Origin: Chloroflexota bacterium
GTDB taxonomy: Bacteria > Chloroflexota > Dormibacteria > Dormibacterales > Dormibacteraceae
Reading direction: 5' to 3'
Length of the DNA: 39,945 nucleotides
Assembly (NCBI GenBank): GCA_005881155.1
Contig: VBHN01000077.1
Coordinates: 1-39,945 of the forward strand
Part shown: one piece after another, positions 432-29,132 of the stretch
Position numbering within the stretch: the stretch's first letter is position 1
Layout of the letters: each line of letters opens with the position of its first letter
Translations under genes and position numbers: made by a program
The notes under the pieces: generated by a model
The model's input: only the letters and a program-made list of their open reading frames with translations
Told to the model about the DNA's origin: nothing
The model's database searches: none

Positions 432-1391
432 GTGCTGGGGAAAGCTGCCCGGCGGTTAGACCGGGCCGTCTTCCGGCCCGACTCGCTCAACCCGGACCTC
501 GTCTCGGCGATCGCCCTGGCTGGACCGGTCCTCGCCGGATTGGTGCTTTTCCGGATGGCGGCGGCGATCTTCCTTCTGCTGGCGGTCGCCATCGGCGGCG
601 TCACCCACCTCGCCTTGCGGCTTCGCCGGCAGCGCCCACAGACCAGCCCGATCATCGTGGCCATCGTCGGTGTCGCCCTCTGCGGACCACTCGCTTCGCC
701 GGCGCTGGCCGCGCTGGTGGCGCTGCTGGCCTCGGTTCTGGAGGTGCTGAGAAGCAGCTTCTGGCCGCGCTCACGGATCCATGCCGGGGTCCTCGCCTAC
801 GCGGTCGTCTACCTCGGCACCGGAGGCGCGGTCGCGGCCTACACGCGGCCCGGCAGCGAGCAGCTCTTCCCGGAACCGATCGCCCAGTGGTCACAGTTCT
901 ATGGCGGCTCGACGCACTTTCTGGAGCCGATCACGCTCTATGTCGGCAACGTCGCCGGTCCGGTCTTCGCCACCTCCCTGCTGGCCGTGGTGATCGGGCT
1001 GGCCTGGCTCTGGTACGCACGCCGGCTCTCACTGATGGCCCTGCTCACCTTCCTGGTCGCCGGCGGGCTGATCTCTGTGGGCCTGCACTACGACCCGGTC
1101 TTCCAGCTGGTCAGCGGGCCCACCTGGTTCGTGGTCGGCTTCGCGCTCTGCGACCGCCGGATGCTGCCCGGCCACCCGCTGGCGCGGCCGGTGCTGGCGC
1201 TGGCGGCCGGGGTGATCGGAATCGGCCTGCGGGCCGCCCACCTTTACATCGAGGCGCTCTTCGTCACCGTGGCCGTCGTCGAGCTGACCTATTCGGTGCT
1301 GGTGCTGCTGTTGGAGGGTGGCGTCGCGCTGCTCCGGCAGCGCTTCAACGCGCGGCGGTCTCTCGCTGAAAAAGGATCGGCCTCCGCATGA
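432..1391 (+). CDS. Multi-TM membrane protein, RnfD/NqrB-like
   Basis: 319-aa ORF with GTG start; many hydrophobic segments; motif PITLYVGNVAGPVFATSLLAVVIGLAWLWYARRLSL resembles RnfD-type proteins; 3' end overlaps convergent purA by 47 bp. Confidence 0.55.
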   Translation: MLGKAARRLDRAVFRPDSLNPDLVSAIALAGPVLAGLVLFRMAAAIFLLLAVAIGGVTHLALRLRRQRPQTSPIIVAIVGVALCGPLASPALAALVALLASVLEVLRSSFWPRSRIHAGVLAYAVVYLGTGGAVAAYTRPGSEQLFPEPIAQWSQFYGGSTHFLEPITLYVGNVAGPVFATSLLAVVIGLAWLWYARRLSLMALLTFLVAGGLISVGLHYDPVFQLVSGPTWFVVGFALCDRRMLPGHPLARPVLALAAGVIGIGLRAAHLYIEALFVTVAVVELTYSVLVLLLEGGVALLRQRFNARRSLAEKGSASA

Positions 1392-2652
1392 CCAGCTGGT
1401 CGCGGTGCGGACCCACGCCGATGAGGTCGACCGGAGCGCCGCAGACCTCGCCGACCCGCTCGACGTAGTCCCGACACTCGCGGGGGAGGTCGCTCCATTC
1501 CGTGCAGCGGGAGATGTCGGCACGCCAGCCGGGCATCTCCTCGTAGACCGGTTCGCAATGCTTCAGGTGGCTGATGTTCGCCATCGGGTGGTCGTGGACC
1601 TCGCCCCGGAAGCGGTAGCCGGTGCAGAGCTTGAGCGTCTCGACCTCGCTCAGCACGTCGACCTTCATCAGCGCCACGCTGGTGGCGCCGTTCAGACGGG
1701 TGGAGTAGCGCGCCACGGGACCGTCGAACCAGCCGACCCGGCGCGCCCTCCCGGTCACGGTCCCGTACTCCCGTCCTCTTTCGCGGATCAGCTCGCCGAG
1801 GTCGTCGAGCAGCTCGGTCGGGAAGGGTCCGTAGCCGACCCGGCTGGTGTAGCCCTTGACCACCACCACGGTCTGGTCGACGCGGGTCGGCGCGATGCCG
1901 CTGCCGGTCAGCGCGCCGCCGGCGGTGGGGTTGGAGCTGGTGACGTAGGGATAGGTGCCGAAGTCGAGGTCGAGCATGGTCGCCTGCGCGCCCTCGAGGA
2001 GGATGTTGTCGCCTCGGTCGAGGGCGGCCTGGACGATCGGGTAGGTGTCCTTGATGTAGCGATCGAGCCGTTTCGCGTACTCGAGGTATTCGGCCAGCAG
2101 CGCCTCGGCATCCAGCGGCTGCTCCGAGTAGAGCTTCTGCAGGATCGGGTTCTTCACCTGGCCGACCACGAAGTCGAGCTTCTTGCGCATGAAGACCTCC
2201 TTCTGGAGGTCGCCGATCCGGAACCCGATCCGCCGAACCTTGTCGCTGTAGGCGGGGCCGATGCCGCGCCAGGTGGTACCCAGGCGATCGTCGCCCCGGA
2301 CGCCTTCCTCGAGCTGGTCGAAGAGCGGGTGGTAGCTCATCACCATGTGCGCGCGCTCGCTGACGACCAGGTTGTCGGGCTCGAGGCCGCGCTCCCTGAG
2401 CTGGTCGATCTCCTTCAGCAGGACGCGCGGGTCGACCACCACCCCGTTGCCGATGATGCAGGTGCAGGTCGGGTAGAGGATGCCGCTGGGCAGGAGCTGG
2501 AACTTGAACTCGCCGTGCTCGGTGACGACGGTGTGGCCCGCGTTGTTGCCACCCTGGCTCCGGATGGCGAGGTCGGCCCGCTCGGCGAGGAGGTCGATTA
2601 CCTTGCCCTTGCCCTCATCGCCCCACTGGCCTCCGACGACGATCACGACCAT
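1345..2652 (-). CDS. purA: Adenylosuccinate synthetase
   Basis: 435 aa; GGQWGDEGKGKVIDLLAERAD, GNNAGHTVV, GTTWRGIGPAYSDK, TSSNPTAGG, GVGPHRDQ. Confidence 0.97.
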   Translation of the reverse strand: MVVIVVGGQWGDEGKGKVIDLLAERADLAIRSQGGNNAGHTVVTEHGEFKFQLLPSGILYPTCTCIIGNGVVVDPRVLLKEIDQLRERGLEPDNLVVSERAHMVMSYHPLFDQLEEGVRGDDRLGTTWRGIGPAYSDKVRRIGFRIGDLQKEVFMRKKLDFVVGQVKNPILQKLYSEQPLDAEALLAEYLEYAKRLDRYIKDTYPIVQAALDRGDNILLEGAQATMLDLDFGTYPYVTSSNPTAGGALTGSGIAPTRVDQTVVVVKGYTSRVGYGPFPTELLDDLGELIRERGREYGTVTGRARRVGWFDGPVARYSTRLNGATSVALMKVDVLSEVETLKLCTGYRFRGEVHDHPMANISHLKHCEPVYEEMPGWRADISRCTEWSDLPRECRDYVERVGEVCGAPVDLIGVGPHRDQLVMRRPILFQRETAAR

Positions 2653-2661
2653 GCTGGGAGC

Positions 2662-4059
2662 CTAGACGTCTGAGGGCGGGCCGCCGTTGCCCTCGTCGGG
2701 TCCGCGGCGCCGCAGGTCGAGGTTCTCGAACCTCGTCAGCTCCGGCCGGAAGCGGAGGTTGACAGTGCCGGTGGGCCCGTTGCGGTTCTTGGCCACGATG
2801 ACCTCCGCGATGCCCGTGGTGTCCGCCTTGTTGTAGTAACCCTCCCGGTAGAGAAAGATGACAACGTCGGCATCCTGTTCAATGCTGCCGCTCTCACGAA
2901 GGTCGGAGAGCATCGGGCGCTTGTCGGTCCGCTGCTCGGGACCGCGGCTCAGCTGGGAGAGGGCGAGCACCGGTAACTTCAGCTCGCGCGCGAGCGCCTT
3001 CATCGAGCGCGAGATCTGCGACACCTCCTGGACGCGGTTGTCATCGCTGCCGCCGCGCCGGCTGTGCATCAGCTGGAGGTAGTCGACGATGATCATGCCG
3101 ACGTTCTCCTGGAGCTTGATGCGCCGTGCTTTGGTGAGCAGCATCAGCTCGTCGAGCATCGGCGAGTCGTCGATGAAGATGGGCGCCTCGCCCAGCGGGC
3201 CCAGGGCCTGGGCCAGCCGCTCGTGCTCGGCCTCCCCGAGCAGTCCCCGATGCAGGCGCTGCGCATCGACACGCGAGTACTCGCAGAGCAGGCGCTCGGC
3301 GAGCTGGTCCTTCGACATCTCGAGGCTGAAGATGGCGACGCTGACGTGTCTGCTCACCGCGGCTTCCAACGCGATGTTCAGAGCCAGCGAGGTTTTTCCC
3401 ATGCTCGGGCGCCCCGCGATGATGGTCAGCTCGTTGTCCTTGAAGCCGTTGGTTTTCGCGTCCAGGTCGTAGAAGCCCGAGGCCACCCCCACCGTCCCGC
3501 CCGCGTTGTTCTGCAGCGCGTCGACCCGCTCCATGGTCGTGCGGAGCAGCCCGAACAGCTTCTCGAACTCGCTCGAGGTGCGGTCCTCGGAGATGTCGAA
3601 GACCACCTTCTGGGCCCGGTTGAGCGCGTCCGGCGCGTCGATCGCCTCGTCGTAGCCGAGGCCGGCGATGTCGCCGCCGGCAGAGATCAGCGAGCGCTTG
3701 GTCGCCTTCTCCTTGACGATCCGCCCGTAGTACTCGATGTTGGCCGAGGTCGGCACCGCCTGCTCCAGCTGGGCGAGGTAGGCGCGGCCGCCGACCCGCT
3801 CCAGGACGCCCATCTTCTCCAGCTCGGACCCGACGGTGACGATGTCGATGGGCTCCCCCAGGGAAAGCAGCTCCAGCGCCGCCCTGAAGACGTCCTCGTG
3901 GTTCTTCCGGTAGAAGTCGGCGGGGCGCAGGAACTCCGAGACCTTGATGATGGCGAGCTCATCCAGCAGGACCGCGCCCAGCACCGATTGCTCGGCCTCC
4001 AGGTCATGAGGGGGGACCCGTCCGGGAAGCCGCCCGTCGAGGGGCGGCGCCAGCGCCAA
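2662..4059 (-). CDS. dnaB: Replicative DNA helicase
   Basis: 465 aa; PHDLEAEQSVLGAVLLD, Walker A GRPSMGKTS, IIVDYLQLM, LSDLRESGSIEQDADVV. Confidence 0.97.
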   Translation of the reverse strand: MALAPPLDGRLPGRVPPHDLEAEQSVLGAVLLDELAIIKVSEFLRPADFYRKNHEDVFRAALELLSLGEPIDIVTVGSELEKMGVLERVGGRAYLAQLEQAVPTSANIEYYGRIVKEKATKRSLISAGGDIAGLGYDEAIDAPDALNRAQKVVFDISEDRTSSEFEKLFGLLRTTMERVDALQNNAGGTVGVASGFYDLDAKTNGFKDNELTIIAGRPSMGKTSLALNIALEAAVSRHVSVAIFSLEMSKDQLAERLLCEYSRVDAQRLHRGLLGEAEHERLAQALGPLGEAPIFIDDSPMLDELMLLTKARRIKLQENVGMIIVDYLQLMHSRRGGSDDNRVQEVSQISRSMKALARELKLPVLALSQLSRGPEQRTDKRPMLSDLRESGSIEQDADVVIFLYREGYYNKADTTGIAEVIVAKNRNGPTGTVNLRFRPELTRFENLDLRRRGPDEGNGGPPSDV

Positions 4060-4428
4060 CTAGCGGTCCCGGGTGACGATCAGGTTGATCGCCGCGTCCA
4101 CCTCGCGGGCCAGGTGAAGGGTCACCTGGTGCTCGCCCAGGGTCTTGATGGGGTCCTTCAGGGCGATGCGATGGCGATCGACCTCGACCTGGTGCTGCGC
4201 CTTGAGTGCCTCGGCGATGTCGGTGTTGGTGATCGAACCGAAAGCCTTGCCCTCCTCGCCCACCTTGAGGCGGACGACGACCGTCTTGTTGCCGATCTCG
4301 TCCGCCAGCGCCTGGGCTTCCTCGCGATCCTTCGACTCGCGCTTGGCCGCCGCGGCGCGGATCTTGGCCTCTTTGACCTCGCCCGCGTTGCCGACGTCCT
4401 TCACGTCCTTGGTGAGCATTACCCGCAA
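4060..4428 (-). CDS. rplI: Ribosomal protein L9, apparently lacking an internal N-domain segment
   Basis: MRVMLTKDVKDVGNAGEVKE joined directly to AKIRAAAAKRESKDREEAQALADEI; C-terminal domain FGSITNTDIAEAL typical of L9; directly upstream of dnaB. Confidence 0.85.
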   Translation of the reverse strand: MRVMLTKDVKDVGNAGEVKEAKIRAAAAKRESKDREEAQALADEIGNKTVVVRLKVGEEGKAFGSITNTDIAEALKAQHQVEVDRHRIALKDPIKTLGEHQVTLHLAREVDAAINLIVTRDR

Positions 4429-7449: not shown

Positions 7450-9090
7450 ATGAAAGCCTCCTCCTACGCCCACGGAGCCAGCTCCCTCCCCCTGCTCGGG
7501 GAGACCATCGGCGAAAACCTCCGGCGCACCGTCGACCAGCACGGCGACCGCGAGGCGCTGGTGGTCCGCCAGCAGGGCTTCCGCGCCAGCTATCGCGAGT
7601 TCTGGGAGCTGACCACGAAATGCGCCCGCGGGCTGTTGGCGCGGGGCGTAAAGAAGGGCGACCGGGTTGGGATCTGGGCTCCGAACCGCTACGAATGGAC
7701 CGTGGTCCAGTACGCGACCGCCCGGATGGGGGCGATCCTCGTCAACATCAACCCGGCCTACAAGACCTCGGAGTTGGAGTACGCGCTCAACCAGTCCGGC
7801 GTGAGCTTCCTGGTCCTCGCCAAGGCGTTCCGGACCAACGACTACGTGGCGATGCTGGAGGAGGTTCGCGGCCGCTGCCCGGAGCTCCGCGAGTCGGTCG
7901 TGCTGGAAGACGGCTGGGAGAAGCTGCTGCGCGACTCGACCAAGGTCGCGGAGGCTGATCTGGACGAGCTCGAGGCGACGCTTCAGTTCGATGACCCCAT
8001 CAACATCCAGTACACCTCCGGAACCACCGGCTTTCCGAAGGGCGCCACCCTCTCCCACCACAACATCCTCAACAACGGCTACTTCATCGGCGAGGGTGTG
8101 CACTACACGCCCGAAGACCGGGTCTGCATCCCGGTGCCCTTCTACCACTGCTTCGGCATGGTGCTGGGCAACCTGGCCTGCACCAGCCACGGTTCCTGCA
8201 TGGTCATCCCGGCCGAGGCCTTCGACCCCGTGGCCACCATGGAGACGGTCCAGGAGGAGAGGTGCACCTCCCTCTATGGCACGCCGACCATGTTCATCGG
8301 CGAGCTCGGCAGCCCGCGCTTCAACGATTTCGACCTCACGAGCCTCCGGACCGGCGTGATGGCCGGAGCGCCCTGCCCGGTCGAGGTGATGAAGAAGGTC
8401 CTCTCGCTGATGCACATGCCCGAGATCACGATCATGTACGGGATGACCGAGACCTCCCCGGTCTCGACCCAGAGCCTGATCGGGGACCCGCTCGAGAAGC
8501 AGACGGGGACGGTCGGGAAGGTCTACCCGCACGTGGAGATCAAGATCGCCGACCCCGACACGGGCCGGATTGTTCCACGTGGAACACCGGGCGAGTTCTG
8601 CACCCGCGGCTACTCGGTGATGCTCGGCTACTGGAACAACGAACAGGCCACTCGAGACTCGATCGACGCCGCCCGCTGGATGCACACCGGGGACCTCGCC
8701 GAGATGGACGACGACGGGTACGTCAAGATCGTCGGCCGCCTCAAAGACATGATCATCCGTGGCGGCGAGAACATCTACCCGCGGGAGATCGAGGAGTTTC
8801 TATACAGCCACCCTGCCATCTCCGACGTCCAGGTCATCGGCGTGCCCTCCGAGAAGTACGGCGAGGAGGTCATGGCCTGGGTCAAGCTGCAGGAGGGCGC
8901 GCAGGTGACCGGGGAGGAGCTGTCCGAGTTCTGCCGCGGTAAGATCTCGACCTTCAAGATCCCGCGTCACTGGAAGTTCGTCGACGGTTACCCGATGACG
9001 GTCACCGGGAAGGTGCGCAAGATCGAGATGCGCGAAGCCTCGGTGAAGGAGCTCGGCCTGGAAGGTGCGGCGGCCGTAAGGACCGCCTGA
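7450..9090 (+). CDS. Acyl-CoA synthetase (AMP-binding, FadD-like)
   Basis: 546 aa; YTSGTTGFPKGATLSH, MYGMTETSPVS, GYSVMLGYW, MHTGDLAEMDDDGYVKIVGRLKDMIIRGGENIYPREIE, TGKVRK. Confidence 0.95.
   Translation: MKASSYAHGASSLPLLGETIGENLRRTVDQHGDREALVVRQQGFRASYREFWELTTKCARGLLARGVKKGDRVGIWAPNRYEWTVVQYATARMGAILVNINPAYKTSELEYALNQSGVSFLVLAKAFRTNDYVAMLEEVRGRCPELRESVVLEDGWEKLLRDSTKVAEADLDELEATLQFDDPINIQYTSGTTGFPKGATLSHHNILNNGYFIGEGVHYTPEDRVCIPVPFYHCFGMVLGNLACTSHGSCMVIPAEAFDPVATMETVQEERCTSLYGTPTMFIGELGSPRFNDFDLTSLRTGVMAGAPCPVEVMKKVLSLMHMPEITIMYGMTETSPVSTQSLIGDPLEKQTGTVGKVYPHVEIKIADPDTGRIVPRGTPGEFCTRGYSVMLGYWNNEQATRDSIDAARWMHTGDLAEMDDDGYVKIVGRLKDMIIRGGENIYPREIEEFLYSHPAISDVQVIGVPSEKYGEEVMAWVKLQEGAQVTGEELSEFCRGKISTFKIPRHWKFVDGYPMTVTGKVRKIEMREASVKELGLEGAAAVRTA
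8571..8586. promoter_or_regulatory. parS: Candidate parS centromere site (ParB binding), TGTTCCACGTGGAACA
   Basis: Perfect 16-bp palindrome matching the parS family (TGTTYCACGTGRAACA-like); six consecutive A/T-ending codons (att gtt cca cgt gga aca) in a gene that otherwise uses G/C-ending codons. Confidence 0.85.
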
Positions 9091-9295: not shown

Positions 9296-11638
9296 ATGTC
9301 ACGCAGGTCGTTGACCCGGCGTGTTGCTGGCCTGGCAATCTGGCCGCTGGCGGCCCTGACGCTGGTCTTGAGCGGGGCGGTACCGGCTCGAGCCACCGTC
9401 GACAACTCCATCCTCGGCGGCCTCGACCCTTCGGCGCCGGGCGCGAACCCGTACTCGGGCTGCGTCGCCGCCATCTTGACCGGGGACGGCTTCGTCTTCG
9501 GCAGCGGCTCCGCGCTGGGCGCCGAGCTCGCCTCCCTCTGGCCTTCCCTGCCCGCCGGCGTCACCTCGGCCTGCCACCAGGCCGTGCTCACGCGGCAGCC
9601 GCAGGTCTGCGTGAACCCTCCTGACCCGGCGCTCTGCCCCGCGGCCGGCGCCGAAGCGACCTCCCAGCTCGCAGGCCAGGCGACGGCCCTGTCCGGCACC
9701 TGGCAGCTGATCCCCGATCCCGCCTGCTGCTCCGGCGCGGCCCAGAGCCCCCTCGATCCGGCAGCGCCGCCCAAGACGCCGATGGCGACAGTGACCGGCA
9801 CCTTCACGACCCCGACCGCCTTCTGCGACTCGCCGGGCTCCTGCCCACCCGGAACCGTCGGTCTCTGGACCAACTGCGGGAATTTCAGCTGTGGCCAGGT
9901 CACGCACATGAGCGTGGCCCTCACCGGACGCACTCCCGACACGGCGGCGATGCCGACCGGTGAGAGCGCGGTGCTGGCCCACGTCTACGCCACCGACGGC
10001 CACGGACGCGTGGTCGCGGACCTCGTCGACACCTACGGCAACAACTCCAGCGGCACCGGCTGCGGCGGCCCGGAGCCGCACCAATGCAATTTCGGGTTCG
10101 GGTTCGGCTGGGATTGCACCGACTCCGTAGGCGCGGTCGCGAACTGCGCCTCCCAGTCGCTGACGGTGTCCATCACCTTCCTTACGGGCTGGGCCGGACA
10201 GCCGGCGCCGCCGACCCTGGCCGAACAGGTCCAGATGAGCCTGAGCGCCCAGCTCCTCGACTGGCATGGAAACCCGGCCTGCCCGGACCTGGCGGACTGC
10301 CTGCCCTTCGACGACCCCCGGCTGGCCTACGGCGGGCCGGATGGTCGTCCTACAGTCGTCGACTACGGAGCGGCCCCACTGCCGGCCGCCGTGATCAACC
10401 TCGACCCCAGCAACCTCGGCTGCCTGGTGGGCGTCAGCGTGCTCAGGCAGCCGGCCGCCACCTGTCTCGACCTCACCGGCGCCCAGGCGCCGATCGTCCA
10501 GGCCGCCCACGCCCCGGTTACTCCCGCCTTGCCTCCGGCGGTGACCGCCACCGCCGTCCCGGCAGCCGGAGCCGGTGTTTGGGACAACCAGCCGGTGTCG
10601 GTGACGATCGTGGCCACCGACCAGGGCAGCGGCGTCGCCTCGGTGAGCTACCGTGCCGACGGCGCGCAGGTGATCACCGCGACGATCGTCCCGGGCACCC
10701 AGGCGGTGGTTACCCTCGCGGCCGAGGGCGTCACCACACTCAGCTACTGGGCGACCGACAAGCTGGGCGACGCCAGCCAGCCCCAGACCCTCACGGTCCA
10801 GCTGGACCTCTCCCCGCCGTCGTTCGGTTGCGCCGCCCCCGACGGCCTGTGGCACGCGGCCGACGTCGCTCTGGCTTGCAGCGCCATCGATGCCTTCTCG
10901 GGACTGGCGGATCCATCGGCAGCCGCGTTCCAGCTCAGGACCAGCGTCGCCGCCGGAACCGAGACCGCGAGCGCCGCCACGGGCAGCCGCCAGCTCTGCG
11001 ATCTGGCCGGGAACTGCACCACCGCGGGGCCGATCTCGGACAACCAGGTCGATCGCAAGGCGCCGGACATCACCCTCAGCGCTCCCGCTGGCGCCTACAC
11101 GGTCGGCCAGCTCGTCAGCGCCGATTACGCCTGCTCGGACGGCGGCTCGGGTGTCGCCACCTGCGCTGGTGGCGTGCCGGCCGGTTCGGCGGTGGACACC
11201 AGCCAACCCGGCAGCTTCGCCTTCGCGGTCAGCAGCACCGACAACGCAGGCAACCAATCCGCCCGGTCCAGCTCCTACACCGTCGGGTACGCGATCTGCC
11301 CGTCCGGGATGCAACCGGGCAGCGCGTTGGTAATCGTCTGGCGGACCTTCACGGTCTGCGACGCGGCCGGCGGCAACCTTTCCGGCAACTCCCTCTCCGT
11401 GCACGCCACCGGCATCCTCCAGCAGAGCACCGGGGCGGTGCTGCCGTTCCGGGGCGTGCTGCTCTTCATCGGTGACCGCTATCTCCTGGTGGCTTGGGTC
11501 GGGGGCCTCCCCGACGGCGACTACCAGGTGCTGGTGTCGGTTGGCAGCGACCCGACTAGCCACTCCCTTCCCTTCACCTTGAGCGGGCTCCAGTCGGAGC
11601 TGGACGGCCGGTTCGGCAGCGGTCTTAGGGACAACTAG
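9296..11638 (+). CDS. Secreted Cys-rich protein with bacterial Ig-like (Big) repeats, paralog A
   Basis: 780 aa; RBS aggagg upstream of ATG; signal peptide MSRRSLTRRVAGLAIWPLAALTLVLSGAVPARA; CSDGGSGVATCAGG / STDNAGNQS Ig-like motifs; ~75% similar to the next gene by eye. Confidence 0.85.
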   Translation: MSRRSLTRRVAGLAIWPLAALTLVLSGAVPARATVDNSILGGLDPSAPGANPYSGCVAAILTGDGFVFGSGSALGAELASLWPSLPAGVTSACHQAVLTRQPQVCVNPPDPALCPAAGAEATSQLAGQATALSGTWQLIPDPACCSGAAQSPLDPAAPPKTPMATVTGTFTTPTAFCDSPGSCPPGTVGLWTNCGNFSCGQVTHMSVALTGRTPDTAAMPTGESAVLAHVYATDGHGRVVADLVDTYGNNSSGTGCGGPEPHQCNFGFGFGWDCTDSVGAVANCASQSLTVSITFLTGWAGQPAPPTLAEQVQMSLSAQLLDWHGNPACPDLADCLPFDDPRLAYGGPDGRPTVVDYGAAPLPAAVINLDPSNLGCLVGVSVLRQPAATCLDLTGAQAPIVQAAHAPVTPALPPAVTATAVPAAGAGVWDNQPVSVTIVATDQGSGVASVSYRADGAQVITATIVPGTQAVVTLAAEGVTTLSYWATDKLGDASQPQTLTVQLDLSPPSFGCAAPDGLWHAADVALACSAIDAFSGLADPSAAAFQLRTSVAAGTETASAATGSRQLCDLAGNCTTAGPISDNQVDRKAPDITLSAPAGAYTVGQLVSADYACSDGGSGVATCAGGVPAGSAVDTSQPGSFAFAVSSTDNAGNQSARSSSYTVGYAICPSGMQPGSALVIVWRTFTVCDAAGGNLSGNSLSVHATGILQQSTGAVLPFRGVLLFIGDRYLLVAWVGGLPDGDYQVLVSVGSDPTSHSLPFTLSGLQSELDGRFGSGLRDN

Positions 11639-11695: not shown

Positions 11696-11736
11696 TGACG
11701 GCGCTCTGACGGGCGGGTGACCCCGCGCCGATGACG
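11696..11736. promoter_or_regulatory. Direct-repeat array TGACG-N6-TGACG-N6-TGACC-N9-TGACG upstream of paralog B
   Basis: Repeats at 11696, 11707, 11718, 11732; same 11/11/14 spacing as upstream of paralog A. Confidence 0.55.
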
Positions 11737-11871
11737 CGCCGGCGTTTGCTCTCAGAGGGCACAGGATTTCCGGCCAACCGGACGTTGGTTGCTCAGATTT
11801 TCATATCGGCAGGTACGCCCAGCTCAAATTCATTCAGGGCCCGGCCCGCCGAGATCAGGGAGGAGGCGTTC

Positions 11872-14220
11872 ATGTCACGCGGGTCATTGACCAAGCGTGT
11901 TGTCGTCGCGTTCGTGGCCGGGCCGCTGCTGGCCACCGCGATCGCCATGGGCGGAGCAATGCCCGTTCAAGCCGCGGCCGCGAACCCGACCCTCGGCACC
12001 CTCGACCCGGCCGCACCTGGCGCCAACCAGTACTCGGGCTGTGTCGCCGCCATCCTGGCGGGCGACGGCTTCGTCTTCGGCAGCAGCTCGGCCCTGGACG
12101 CGGAGCTGGCCTCCCTTTGGCCTTCGCTGCCCAGCGGCGTCACCTCGGCCTGCAAGCAGGCGGTGCTCACCAACCAGCCGCAGGTCTGCGTCAACCCGGC
12201 GACGCCCTGGATCTGCTCCGCGGTGGGCGCCGATGCCACCGCGCAGCTCGCCAACCAGGCGACGGCGCTTGACGGGACCTGGAAGCTGATCCCGGACGCC
12301 AGCTGCTGCTCGGGCGCCGCGCAGACCCCCCTCGATGTCCGGGCCGCGCCGGAGACGCACATGGCGACCGTGACCGGGACCTTCACGACCCCAGCCGCCT
12401 TCTGCGACTCGCCAGGTTCCTGCCCGCCGGGCATCACCGGCCTCTGGACCAGCTGTGGCTACTTCAGCTGCGGCGCCGTCACCCATATGAACGTAACCAT
12501 CACCGGTCGGACCCCGGACACCGCCGCGATGCCCGTTGGCGAGAGCGCGGTCCTGGCCCAGGTCCACGCCGTCGACGGCCACGGCCGCCTGGTCGCGGAC
12601 CTGATCGACACCTTCGGCAACAACTCCAGCGGCGCCGGCTGTGGCGGCCCTGAACCGCACCAGTGCAACTTCGGCTTCGGCTTCGGCTGGGACTGCACGA
12701 ACGCAGCGGGCGCCTCGGCCAACTGCGGCTCGCAGTCGCTCACCGTCAGCACCGCCTACTGGACGGGCTGGGCGGGACAGGCGGCGCCGCCGACCCTGGC
12801 CCAGCTGGTGCAGCTGAGCCTGAGCGCCCAGCTCCTCGACTGGCACGGCAACGCCGGCTGCCCGAGCCTGGCGGACTGCTTGCGGTTCGATGACTCCCGG
12901 CTCGCCTTCGGCGGTGCTGACGGCAGCCCGACCGTCGTCGACCACGCCGCCGCGGCGATGCCGCCGGCGGTGATCAACCTCGACCCGGCCAACCTCAACT
13001 GCCTGGTGGGCGTCAACGTGCTGGCGACCCCGGCAGTAACCTGCGCCGACCTCACCCATGTCCAGGCCCCGATCGTCCAGGGCGCTCACGGACCGGTGAA
13101 GCCCGCCCTGCCGCCGGGGGTGACTGCCAGTGCTGTCCCGGCCGCCGGAGCCGGCACCTGGGACCACCAGCCGGTGGCGGTGACGGTCACCGCGACCGAC
13201 CAGGGCGGCGGCGTCGGCTCCGTCGGCTACCAGGCCGCCGGCGCTGAGACGATCGCCCCGACCACGGTTCCCGGCAACCAGACGACCGTCACCCTGGGGG
13301 CCGAGGGCGTGACCTCCCTCCGCTACTGGGCGACCGACAAGCTGGGCACGGCGAGCAAGCCGCAGACGCTCACGGTTCAGCTCGACCTCTCGGCGCCGTC
13401 GGTGGTCTGCGCCGCGCCGGACGGCCAGTGGCACGCGACTGACGTCTCCCTGGCCTGCACGGCCGCCGATCCCTTCTCGGGGCTCGCCGATCCGTCAGCT
13501 GGCTCCTTCCAGCTCAGCACCAGCGTGCCCTCCGGCACGGAGACCGCCAACGCGGCGACCGGCGCCCGGCAGGTCTGCGACGCGGTTGGGAACTGCGCGG
13601 GCGTGGGGCCGATCTCAGGCAACAAGGTCGACCGCAAGCCGCCCGCCATCACCATCAGCGCACCCGGCGGCGCCTACACTGTCGGCCAGCCGGTCAGCGC
13701 CGGCTACACCTGTTCGGACGGCGGCTCGGGAGTCGCCACCTGCGCCGGCGGCCTGGCGGTGGGCTCGGCGGTCGACACCAGCCGGCCCGGCACCTTCACC
13801 CTCACGGTCAACAGCACGGACAACGTGGGCAACCAGTCCACGCAGTCCAGCTCCTACACGGTCGGTTACGGGATCTGCCTGGTTGACAAGCAGCCCGGCA
13901 GCGAGGAATCCGTCGTCTGGCGGACCTTCACCATCTGCGACGCGGCCGGCAACAACCTGTCGAGTGACTCGCTGCTGGTCCAACCCACCGGTGTCCTCCA
14001 GATGTCGACCGGCACGGTGCTGCCCTTCGATGGGGTTCTGCACTTCGTCGACGACCGCTACCTCCTGGTCTTGAAGGTCGGCGGCCTGCCCGACGGCCAG
14101 TACCATCTGCTGTTCACGGTCGGCTCCGATCCGGCCCCGCATTCGCTGGCCTTCCTGCTGGACCGCAGCCAGCCTCAGCCCCAGCCCAGCCCGTCCCACC
14201 ACCCGAAGAAGCACAACTAG
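11872..14220 (+). CDS. Secreted Cys-rich protein with bacterial Ig-like repeats, paralog B
   Basis: ATG at 11872 with RBS gggaggagg; 782 aa; signal peptide MSRGSLTKRVVVAFVAGPLLATAIAMGGAMPVQA; full-length homology to paralog A; extra tail QPQPQPSPSHHPKKHN. Confidence 0.85.
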   Translation: MSRGSLTKRVVVAFVAGPLLATAIAMGGAMPVQAAAANPTLGTLDPAAPGANQYSGCVAAILAGDGFVFGSSSALDAELASLWPSLPSGVTSACKQAVLTNQPQVCVNPATPWICSAVGADATAQLANQATALDGTWKLIPDASCCSGAAQTPLDVRAAPETHMATVTGTFTTPAAFCDSPGSCPPGITGLWTSCGYFSCGAVTHMNVTITGRTPDTAAMPVGESAVLAQVHAVDGHGRLVADLIDTFGNNSSGAGCGGPEPHQCNFGFGFGWDCTNAAGASANCGSQSLTVSTAYWTGWAGQAAPPTLAQLVQLSLSAQLLDWHGNAGCPSLADCLRFDDSRLAFGGADGSPTVVDHAAAAMPPAVINLDPANLNCLVGVNVLATPAVTCADLTHVQAPIVQGAHGPVKPALPPGVTASAVPAAGAGTWDHQPVAVTVTATDQGGGVGSVGYQAAGAETIAPTTVPGNQTTVTLGAEGVTSLRYWATDKLGTASKPQTLTVQLDLSAPSVVCAAPDGQWHATDVSLACTAADPFSGLADPSAGSFQLSTSVPSGTETANAATGARQVCDAVGNCAGVGPISGNKVDRKPPAITISAPGGAYTVGQPVSAGYTCSDGGSGVATCAGGLAVGSAVDTSRPGTFTLTVNSTDNVGNQSTQSSSYTVGYGICLVDKQPGSEESVVWRTFTICDAAGNNLSSDSLLVQPTGVLQMSTGTVLPFDGVLHFVDDRYLLVLKVGGLPDGQYHLLFTVGSDPAPHSLAFLLDRSQPQPQPSPSHHPKKHN

Positions 14221-25190: not shown

Positions 25191-27029
25191 TCAGCGCAGC
25201 GTCCGGACGTCGCCCTCGCGGCGCGTGATCCGTTCGGCGTCGAGATGCTCGAGCAGCGCCAGCACGGGTCGCCGGCTCGCGGACAGCGCGTCCCGCAGCC
25301 TCGCCACGGTCACCCCTCCCTCGGCGGCGACGATCTCCTGGACCAGCGCCAGCGCCGACCGGTACGCCTCGCGGGTGAAGGCCATGTCGTCGGAGAGCCT
25401 GACCACCTCGCCGCTCTTGACCAGCGCCCGCAGCACCTCCGGTCCGGCGCCCGACTCGCGCAGCGCCTCCGGCAGCGAGGGCGGCGAGTAGGGCGACCGG
25501 CCCAGCAGCTCGACCAGCTGCCGGGCGGGACCGCCTTCGGCCGGGTCGAGCCGGACCTGGTGGGAGGGTAGCGCGACCTCGCCTGACCGCTCCACCAGCA
25601 CGCCATCACGAGCCAGCTCGCCGGCGACCACCCCGAACGCGGCCGGCGCCAGGCCGAGGCGGCTCTTCAGCTCCTCGCGGGGCATCCCACCCCGGAGCGG
25701 ATGGGCGCGGTGGTACTCCTCGAGCAGCCCGACCGTCCGACCCCTGATCGCCGTCCAGGCCTCGGGCGAGAAGACCCAGCCGCCGGCCCGCCTGGCGGCG
25801 AGCCGGGTAAGGTCCGCCGAGGGCGCCAGGGTCGCCTTCAGCAGAGCGCCCTCGGTGATCCCGCGGGCGTACTTGCGGAGCTCCTCCTGGAGGACGTCGC
25901 CCGCCATCCGCCGCTCCAGGGAGGCCGGGACCTCCGCGTCATGTCGAGGATGGCGGCGGGGATTGACATCGGCGAAGCGTCCGCCGGCGAGGGTGGCGGA
26001 CGGGCTGGGCAGGCGGAGGACGAAGTGGTCGCCGGCGGCGGCCGCCACGGGCTCCGCAAGGTAGAGCTGAATCCAGCCCCGTCCGCCGGGCGGGACCTCG
26101 TCAGCGTCGAGCACGATGGCGCGTGCCGATACCTCCGCGGTGCCGGTGTGGAGCATCAGGGTGGAGCCGTGCCGGAGCGGCCGGACGGCGCCGGCCAGCA
26201 CACTCACCTCCGCATCAACCCGGCGGGTGGGCGCGAACGCGCCGGGCCGCGCGAGCAGGTGCCCGCGGGCCAGGTCCTCCTTCTCGACACCGGCCAGGTT
26301 GACCGCCACCCGGCTGCCAGGAGTGGCGACCTCGACCTTGCGGTTGTGCTGCTGGAGGCCGCGGATGCGGACCCGGCGCCCGCCGGGCAGGGTCTCCAGC
26401 TCCTCCCCCACCTTCAGCGAGCCATCAACCAGGGTGCCGGTCACCACCGTGCCGAAGCCGCCGATGGTGAAGACGCGATCGATCGGCAGCCGAGGCCGGC
26501 CGAGGTCGGGGCGCGGCTCGGCCGCGTCGAGGAGGGAATCCAACTTCGCTTTCAGCGCTTCCAGGCCGCCGCCGGTGAGCGCTGAGACGGGAACGATCTC
26601 CGCCCCGGCCAGGGAGGTGCCGGCGAGCTGCTCGCTCACCTCGGCGGTCACGAGCTCGAGCCACTCGGGGTCGACCAGGTCGATCTTGGTCAGCACCACC
26701 AGCCCGCGCCGGATGTCGAGCAGGTGGACGATCTCCAGGTGTTCCACGGTCTGGGGCATCACGCCCTCGTCGGCCGCCACCACCAGCAGCACGGCGTCGA
26801 GGCCCTGGACCCCGGCCAGCAGGTTGCGGATGAAGCGCGCGTGCCCGGGGACGTCGACGATGCCCACCTGCCGGCCGCCGGGCAGCTCCAGGTAGGCGAA
26901 GCCGAGGTCGATCGTCATGCCCCGTCGCTTCTCCTCGGCGAGCCGGTCGGGGTCGATCCCGGTCAGCGCCTCGATGAGCGTGGACTTGCCGTGGTCGATG
27001 TGACCTGCCGTGCCGACGACGAAGCTCAT
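25191..27029 (-). CDS. selB: Selenocysteine-specific translation elongation factor SelB
   Basis: 612 aa; [74 protein letters not shown]-terminal winged-helix region. Confidence 0.95.
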
Positions 27030-27123
27030 CGGCAGTCACAAGCCGGCGCCGCGATATGGGCCGATCCAGGCGCCCCAGATCCGGCGACTAGACGCAGGGG
27101 CGGTCGATGAGCTTCGTGGAAAC

Positions 27124-28470
27124 TCATTTTTGGAGCGAGCGCACTGCCCGTTCAACCGCGTCGAAGAGGGGTTCATCCTCGCCGGTTAGGACGGTGCGGG
27201 GGTCCAGGCAGCAGCGGTCGGCCTCGATCCTCCCGAGCACGGGCGGCTCACCCTGGCGGAGCGCGCTCAACAGCCGCGAGGCTGGGCCTTCGAGCGCAAC
27301 CAGGGTGGTGGGCAGCCCGTGGCCGGGCAGGGAGCCGCCACCGGCCGCCGACTCGGACTCCAAAAGAGAGGTGGCGACCTCGCGGTCCCCGAGCTTGACC
27401 GTCCACCAGGCAGCCCGGCGCCGGAGCTCGGCGGGCTGGGCGGTGACCATCCGCTCGACCGGCACCTCGGTCCCCGCCCGCTCCAGCAGCCACTCGCGGA
27501 GCGTCGCCTCCAGCGCCGCCAGCGAGAGCTTGTCGATCCGCAGTGCCCTCGCCAGCGGGTGGCGGGCCAGCTTCCGGACCGCCTCCACCGACCCGAGCAG
27601 GATGCCCGCCTGAGGGCCTCCGAGCAGCTTGTCGCCGCTGAAGCAGACCAGGTCGGCGTGGCGTAGCGAGTCGACCACCGACGGCTCATCGGCCACGCCG
27701 AAGAGGGACCCGCTGCCGAGGTCGTCGAGCAGCAGCAGCTGGTGGTTGTGCGCCACCTCAGCCAGCTCCGCGAGGCCGGCCGACTCGGTGAAGCCGCTGA
27801 CCCGGAAGTTCGACGTGTGCACCCGCAGGACGGCGGCCGTCCGAGGACCCACCGCCTCTTCGTAATCGGAGGCGCGGGTGCGGTTGGTGGTGCCGACCTC
27901 GACCATCCGCGCGCCCGAGAGCCGCATCACGTCGGGCATCCGGAAGGAGCCGCCGATCTCGACCTGCTGGCCGCGGGAGACGATCACCTCGCGGCCCCTA
28001 CAGAGCGCCGTCAGGGCCAGCAGGATGGCCCCGGCGTTGTTGTTGACGACCAACGCCGCGGGCGCGCCGGTCAGCCGGCGCAGCAGCGGCGCGACGTGGG
28101 CGGTGCGCTCACCGCGACGGCCGCTGGCCAGGTCGAGCTCGAGATTCGAGTAGCCGGCGGCGGTCTCGCTGACGGCGGCCGTCGCAGACCGGGACAGCGG
28201 CGCCCGGCCGAGGTTGGTGTGGATGACGACGCCCGACGCGTTGATGACGCGGCGGAGGCTGGTCGCCAGCAGACTGCGCAGGCTCGCTTCGACCAGGGCC
28301 AGCCGGTCCTCACCGGAAGCCTCCGCCCCTGCCCGCTCCGCCTCCAGCTGGGCGCGGATGGCGGCGACCACGAGGTCGTGCGGGAAGCGCTCGCGCAGCC
28401 GGGCGTAACCCGGCTCGTTTACAAGCTTGCCGACGGCAGGCAGGGAAAGAGCCCGATGTACCCGCTGCAT
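27124..28470 (-). CDS. selA: L-seryl-tRNA(Sec) selenium transferase
   Basis: Start ATG at 28470; RVINASGVVIHTNLGRAPLS, VVNNNAGAILLAL, EIGGSFRMPDVM, VGTTNRTRASDYEEAV, CFSGDKLLGGPQAGI. Confidence 0.96.
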   Translation of the reverse strand: MQRVHRALSLPAVGKLVNEPGYARLRERFPHDLVVAAIRAQLEAERAGAEASGEDRLALVEASLRSLLATSLRRVINASGVVIHTNLGRAPLSRSATAAVSETAAGYSNLELDLASGRRGERTAHVAPLLRRLTGAPAALVVNNNAGAILLALTALCRGREVIVSRGQQVEIGGSFRMPDVMRLSGARMVEVGTTNRTRASDYEEAVGPRTAAVLRVHTSNFRVSGFTESAGLAELAEVAHNHQLLLLDDLGSGSLFGVADEPSVVDSLRHADLVCFSGDKLLGGPQAGILLGSVEAVRKLARHPLARALRIDKLSLAALEATLREWLLERAGTEVPVERMVTAQPAELRRRAAWWTVKLGDREVATSLLESESAAGGGSLPGHGLPTTLVALEGPASRLLSALRQGEPPVLGRIEADRCCLDPRTVLTGEDEPLFDAVERAVRSLQK

Positions 28471-29132
28471 CCGCCAAGGATGACGGTCGCGGCCGGCGCG
28501 TAGAAGGGCACCAGCACGACGTTGAGAAGGTTGCCGGCGAAGAACTGGCCGACGAAGAGCAGGAGGATCAGCACCTGCTGGATCTGCAGCCGGCGCATGG
28601 AGACGTCCATGAAGAAGCGCGGGAAGCGCCGCCGGAAGAGGACCTCGACGATCTCCCAACCGTCGAAGCCGGGCACCGGCAGGAGGTTGAACGCCATCAC
28701 CGAGAGGTTGGCGAAGTAGGCCGCGTAGAGGATGGTGGCCAGGTAGCCGAGCGGCGACATCACGACCGTGGTGTAGTTCACGTAGAGGGCAAGGGGCCGG
28801 GTCGCGAGACCGAAGACCACGGCCAGCAGGAGGTTCGCGGCCGGGCCGCCGAGGATGTAGGCGAACCGCTGCCAGAGGCTCTGCTGGCGGTACTCGTTGA
28901 CCGGGATCCGCTCGCCCCAGCCGACGCGCCAGAAGAGCATCATCAGCAGTCCGTAGACGCTGAAGAACTTGCGCGGGTTGGCCAGGGACAGGAAGCCGCG
29001 GTTGCGCGGGGTGCGGTCGCCCAACCAGTAGGCGACCAGCCCATGGCCCAGCTCGTGGGCGGCGATGGCGACCAGCGCACCCGGGATCAGGAGCAGCGCC
29101 GAGGCGATCCAGGGGTAAGGGTTGGAGAGCAC
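28419..29132 (-). CDS. Site-2 protease (M50) family protein
   Basis: HELGHGLVAYWLGD zinc motif and NLLPVPGFDGWEIVE motif; overlaps selA start by ~52 bp. Confidence 0.88.
   Translation of the reverse strand: MLSNPYPWIASALLLIPGALVAIAAHELGHGLVAYWLGDRTPRNRGFLSLANPRKFFSVYGLLMMLFWRVGWGERIPVNEYRQQSLWQRFAYILGGPAANLLLAVVFGLATRPLALYVNYTTVVMSPLGYLATILYAAYFANLSVMAFNLLPVPGFDGWEIVEVLFRRRFPRFFMDVSMRRLQIQQVLILLLFVGQFFAGNLLNVVLVPFYAPAATVILGGCSGYIGLFPCLPSASL

Follow-up and report, generated by a model that had tools for sequence, protein, structure and literature searches.

The window analysed here, 39,945 nucleotides long in its entirety, is contig C156 of G000, a 2.8-Mb Dormibacteria-like MAG in 235 contigs that is 84.7% complete. 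It carries a fadD-type gene for a fatty acid CoA ligase, and within this gene there is a perfect 16-bp palindrome, TGTTCCACGTGGAACA, just as the earlier note had described it (table 1). The rplI-dnaB-purA cluster lies nearby, its near edges 4.1-5.9 kb from the palindrome. The window also contains adjoining selB and selA genes, that is, selenocysteine insertion machinery, and two neighbouring genes, likely a tandem duplication, for large proteins that both have a barrel domain of the OmpL47 type.

Table 1. Coordinates of the features mentioned in the text (positions in the window, unless a contig or locus is named)
Feature	Position	Strand	Basis
purA, adenylosuccinate synthetase	1345..2652	-	Pfam PF00709, E=1.5e-171
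dnaB, replicative helicase	2662..4059	-	Pfam DnaB_C, E=1e-104
rplI, ribosomal protein L9, C-terminal domain	4060..4428	-	Pfam PF03948, E=9e-28
fadD-type gene for a fatty acid CoA ligase, with the palindrome at codons 374-379	7450..9090	+	NCBIfam NF009233, E=1e-246, slightly under cut-off
TGTTCCACGTGGAACA, probable parS of type BB (B half-site TGTTCCAC twice)	8571..8586	.	Consensus match, codon and Markov statistics, P. aeruginosa identity
Large proteins with OmpL47-type barrel domain	9296-11638 and 11731-14220	+	
selB and selA	25191-28659	-	
AB sites with TAA/GTG at frame start, G000	C105:4850, C146:23159, C223:22958, C220:7241		
AB sites with TAA/GTG at frame start, G009	C75:26585, C18:86, C97:2929		
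Four exact BB sites, G041 C205 (L281, 3045 bp)	243, 1017, 1725, 2658		
Two AB sites, G181 C33 (L319)	9598, 9631		
TGTTTCACCGTCAAG element, family f2	L051 454 and 499; L057 391; L058 392; L061 3153(-); L065 3016 and 3064; L259 8442		
TGTTTCACGATTTTC, G051 (family f3)	L246 8986 and 9154		

The fadD palindrome and its setting

TGTTCCACGTGGAACA is the sole match in the window to TGTTYCACGTGRAACA at up to three mismatches, and it agrees with the 16-bp palindromic parS consensus at every position. In the fadD frame it reads att gtt cca cgt gga aca and encodes IVPRGT (residues 374-379). The observation that six consecutive A/T-ending codons stand here amid G/C-ending ones was borne out, the GC3 of fadD being 0.92 and no other stretch of the gene having even three A/T-ending codons in a row. 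Given the peptide, such a choice of codons has a probability of 5.7e-9, and it is the least probable among 4,162 six-codon windows from eight CDSs of the window, which supports the view that selection on the DNA prevailed over codon preference. Markov models of order 1-3 predict 0.6-1.7e-4 copies of TGTTCCACGTGGAACA in the 2.8-Mb assembly. This rarity, the faultless match to the consensus and the presence of one ParB and of related sites in the same genome all speak for a site of parS type.

FadD orthologs were found in 36 of the 42 genomes of the family (f1), with 71-85% identity, the closest named relative being that of 'Candidatus Dormibacteraeota' S89_Bin_13, on which account the organism is taken to be one of the Dormibacteria. 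They retain the peptide, although the IVPRGT motif proved to be conserved only in part: its V-P-R core is well conserved, but the last residue varies among T, E, M, A and Q. As for the palindrome, none of the aligned orthologs has it, and the nearest relative (G012, FadD 85% identical) reads atc gtt ccg cgc ggt atg at this place. Because its codons and its sequence are so rare and the orthologs are devoid of it, we regard the fadD site as real and recent, either selected at the DNA level or else imported as a patch.

The earlier note also took the rplI-dnaB-purA cluster as a sign of origin proximity. The cluster is indeed there, but origin proximity was not supported. The linkage of dnaB and fadD is maintained across the family and fadD is intact. 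In no family genome, the best-assembled members included, are dnaB and purA found on the parB contig; in G030 they are more than 187 kb from parB, which is itself at least 187 kb from both contig ends. In three genomes of the sister family f2 (G042, G060 and G072) purA and parB are 48-65 kb apart.

Two half-sites in three pairings

The fadD palindrome is the only site on its contig, and no second canonical site was found in the 235 contigs of the G000 assembly at up to one mismatch, what rules out that it is one among many canonical sites. Nor is it typical of the parS set of its genome, in which the repeated sites are of two other types. A search at three mismatches brought out TGTTCCACGTTTTACA, hereafter AB, with six exact copies in G000, two of them near parB on contig C44. 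Its left half is the canonical half-site TGTTCCAC (B) and its right half, GTTTTACA, is the complement of TGTAAAAC (A). The site is non-palindromic and shows three mismatches to the canonical consensus, all within one half. The second type, AA, is the palindrome TGTAAAACGTTTTACA, which departs from the canonical site in both halves and is present in three exact copies.

A combined pattern, TGTWNMACGTKNWACA, has 11 exact matches in G000 and none in the reversed control. These are seven AB (one with a variant base), three AA and a single BB, that of fadD; counting three sites with one mismatch, the total is 14. Eight of the 14 are on C44, C141, C155 and C169, which share synteny with the contig that bears parB in G009, and by this synteny the eight map within about 42 kb of parB. 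G000 has a single parB, on C44, with parA just upstream and AB sites on both sides; a cognate parAB pair for the fadD site is thus at hand.

At up to one mismatch, AB was found in 40 of the 42 family genomes (14 genera) and in none of 59 class-mates. Most family genomes have one copy, 4.2-4.5 kb from parB (in G005, upstream of gcvT), while G000, G009, G019, G006 and G013 have several sites each, ten of them within 47 kb around parB in G009. An unbiased k-mer scan around parB gave the AB-type site as the sole conserved islands of at least 12 bp with unconserved flanks in the family, and AB and AA sites cluster near parAB as such short islands. The base immediately outside AB is A or T in 94% (upstream) and 87% (downstream) of 54 sites, in genomes that are GC-rich. 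The exact canonical site is absent from 37 of the 42 genomes. In many AB sites a high-GC3 frame starts exactly where the B half offers a GTG, the A half contributing a TAA in frame (table 1), and parS may overlap start codons there.

Codon 376 of gcvPA, close to parAB, is occupied by BB in G011, G013 and G021 (peptide MFHVEQ), as an additional site near their AB sites. In G006, whose sites are mostly AA, the same codon has TGAAAAACGTTTTACA, one mismatch from AA (peptide MKNVLH); the other genera have neither BB nor a near-AA site at this codon. A small contig of G041, a genome with 9% contamination, bears exact BB copies in repeats of about 0.7-0.9 kb.

Six other families of the phylum also contain TGTTTCACGTTTTACA, in eight genomes altogether, and six of these genomes have it no more than 1 kb from parB. 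The distance to the parB end is at most about 60 bp in G135, G216, G286 and G422; in G362 the site is placed where a ParB-like reading frame ends, while in G417 and G380 two AB copies are found 0.7-0.9 kb upstream of parB. G181 has two AB sites 33 bp apart; a ParB was looked for up to about 9 kb away but did not turn up. The canonical site is present in none of these eight genomes, whereas many of their f15 and f53 relatives have one, located about 0.75 kb (and similar distances) upstream of parB, that is, where G417 and G380 have AB. Such swaps of site type, at the gcvPA codon and upstream of parB, are the best evidence for AB as a parS equivalent in function to the canonical site.

The absence of the palindrome from orthologs and a different sequence at the other sites of the genome had been named in the earlier note as grounds for abandoning a parS. 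Both were literally found, but they are too strict, because the sites of this family move between genes and the other sites share a half-site with that of fadD.

Other arrangements were seen in two further families. Near parA and parB of family f2 a more extended element is conserved, in which TGTTTCACCGTCAAG precedes (C)CCGTGRAAC. About 13 bp separate the canonical half-site from its complement in this element, which is sometimes doubled and is possibly a split or three-half-site parS. In G051, of family f3, TGTTTCACGATTTTC is found twice near parB, with a canonical half and a differing second half. For the rest of f3, in which most ParBs have lost R204, no parS was found; a candidate, CAAACCACGTCGTTTG, was rejected as the conserved start of the parB gene, its complement reading MNKRRGLGRG.

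ParB and the reading of the sites

Most genomes of the family have one clear chromosomal ParB, and for this reason the asymmetric AB is presumably read by a ParB homodimer. The recognition helix of most members is GK[NH]RVxVxQ, with S172 changed to N or H and N178 to Q (in G006, to G and H, respectively). Class-mates with canonical sites retain S172 and N178, two residues that are also conserved between ParB and Noc (PMC7383237). Recoding through S172N or N178Q as the cause of the A half-site was ruled out, for AB-lineage ParBs of f15, f20, f42 and f53 retain N178; the near-identical helices of G417 (AB) and G164 (BB) are further against it. V174, which follows R173, is common to the ParBs of the AB lineages, with the ParB-like protein beside the G362 site as the exception; it also occurs in several BB ParBs and may at most be permissive.

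On the evidence of these sequences, we consider it probable (about 0.8) that the fadD palindrome is a parS, that is, a ParB-loading site, which arose in the fadD gene of this lineage and represents BB in a centromere set of mixed half-sites. The one chromosomal ParB, product of a single gene, would accept both B (TGTTCCAC) and A (TGTAAAAC), however they are paired (BB, AB or AA), each subunit reading one half-site. Once bound, ParB would load as a CTP-dependent clamp, then spread and, like its counterparts in known ParABS systems, serve SMC loading and the segregation of origins by ParA. The asymmetric AB near parB would be the family-wide core of the set, extra copies being spread over genes and gene starts in a few genera, and the fadD site would most likely be an additional loading site for ParB, of the kind usual in ParABS systems.

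Some facts count against this reading: BB is single in G000 and absent from the fadD orthologs, and loci of the C156 type are far from parB in some relatives. The first two, together with the unsupported origin proximity, would also be seen if AB and AA were parS and the fadD palindrome a chance or non-functional look-alike. We find this unlikely, considering that about 1e-4 copies are expected, that no other six-codon window among the 4,162 is less probable and that BB stands beside AB sites in G011, G013 and G021.

Some AB sites at gene starts would also be explained by a transcription regulator, and the 16-mers as a whole might be its operators instead of centromeres. Several sites of G000, G009 and G006 are in fact at the 5' end of a high-GC3 frame that starts directly after the TAA within the A half-site, the GTG of the B half-site being in start position. 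On the other hand, many sites are deep within coding frames (fadD codon 374, gcvPA codons 177 and 376), site density is highest around parB, and elsewhere in the phylum the site abuts on the parB end or replaces the canonical parS, so that operators seem quite improbable. That the fadD site is a parS which came in with a mobile element, or which serves one, is the least credible explanation by far: canonical parS do occur on plasmids and prophages, and G041 has four BB on one 3-kb repetitive contig, but fadD is intact, the dnaB-purA linkage is preserved across the family and G000 has a single ParB.

A mixed half-site set would add a further, rather doubtful, prospect, that of a directional centromere in this Chloroflexota-like lineage, with a fixed asymmetric parS as the nucleation point of a ParB homodimer. 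The asymmetry might then be functional, by means of polar clamp loading or release or of oriented SMC loading, and might have originated several times through the replacement of one half of a canonical site.

Comparison with known parS systems

Taken alone, the fadD site would be ordinary, because it is identical over 16 bp to parS2 and parS3 of P. aeruginosa, which are validated parS, and because nine of the ten parS of PAO1 are predicted within coding sequences (PMC4368675). The weaker sites of P. aeruginosa, however, are near-palindromes of one half-site with scattered mismatches, whereas in G000 a second half-site type recurs exactly. The ParB of P. aeruginosa can also recognise a single B-type heptamer, GTTCCAC, known as half-parS (PMC7022226); these are isolated halves, whereas the AB of the family has a fixed and different other half.

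What appears to be new is the set of mixed half-sites, together with an asymmetric parS that is conserved exactly. Neither of them was found reported in the literature searched, mostly outside subscription journals, and TGTTCCACGTTTTACA was not found there either; the usual description of parS is that of a highly conserved palindrome which a symmetric dimer reads. A single ParB apparently using BB, AB and AA, with an exchange of site types at one and the same gcvPA codon, would offer a direct test of the evolution of half-site recognition, affinity and clamp loading. Moreover, scans with the canonical consensus would miss the centromeres of a whole family, given the 37 genomes without an exact canonical site.

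AB shares with the canonical chromosomal parS, TGTTNCACGTGAAACA (PMC7022226), the length of 16 bp, the register, the left half-site and the vicinity of parAB. It differs from it at three positions of one half, yet is conserved base for base in most of the 14 genera. The Noc-binding site has the sequence ATTTCCCGGGAAAT. It is likewise a re-specified site of the ParB fold (PMC7383237), to which Q173 and R201 correspond in the protein. Our sites do not belong to this class, given that their sequence differs and the G000 helix keeps R173, which in the ParBs of the family is accompanied by N/H172, V174 and Q178. Noc sites are symmetric and altered in both half-sites, whereas AB is altered in only one.
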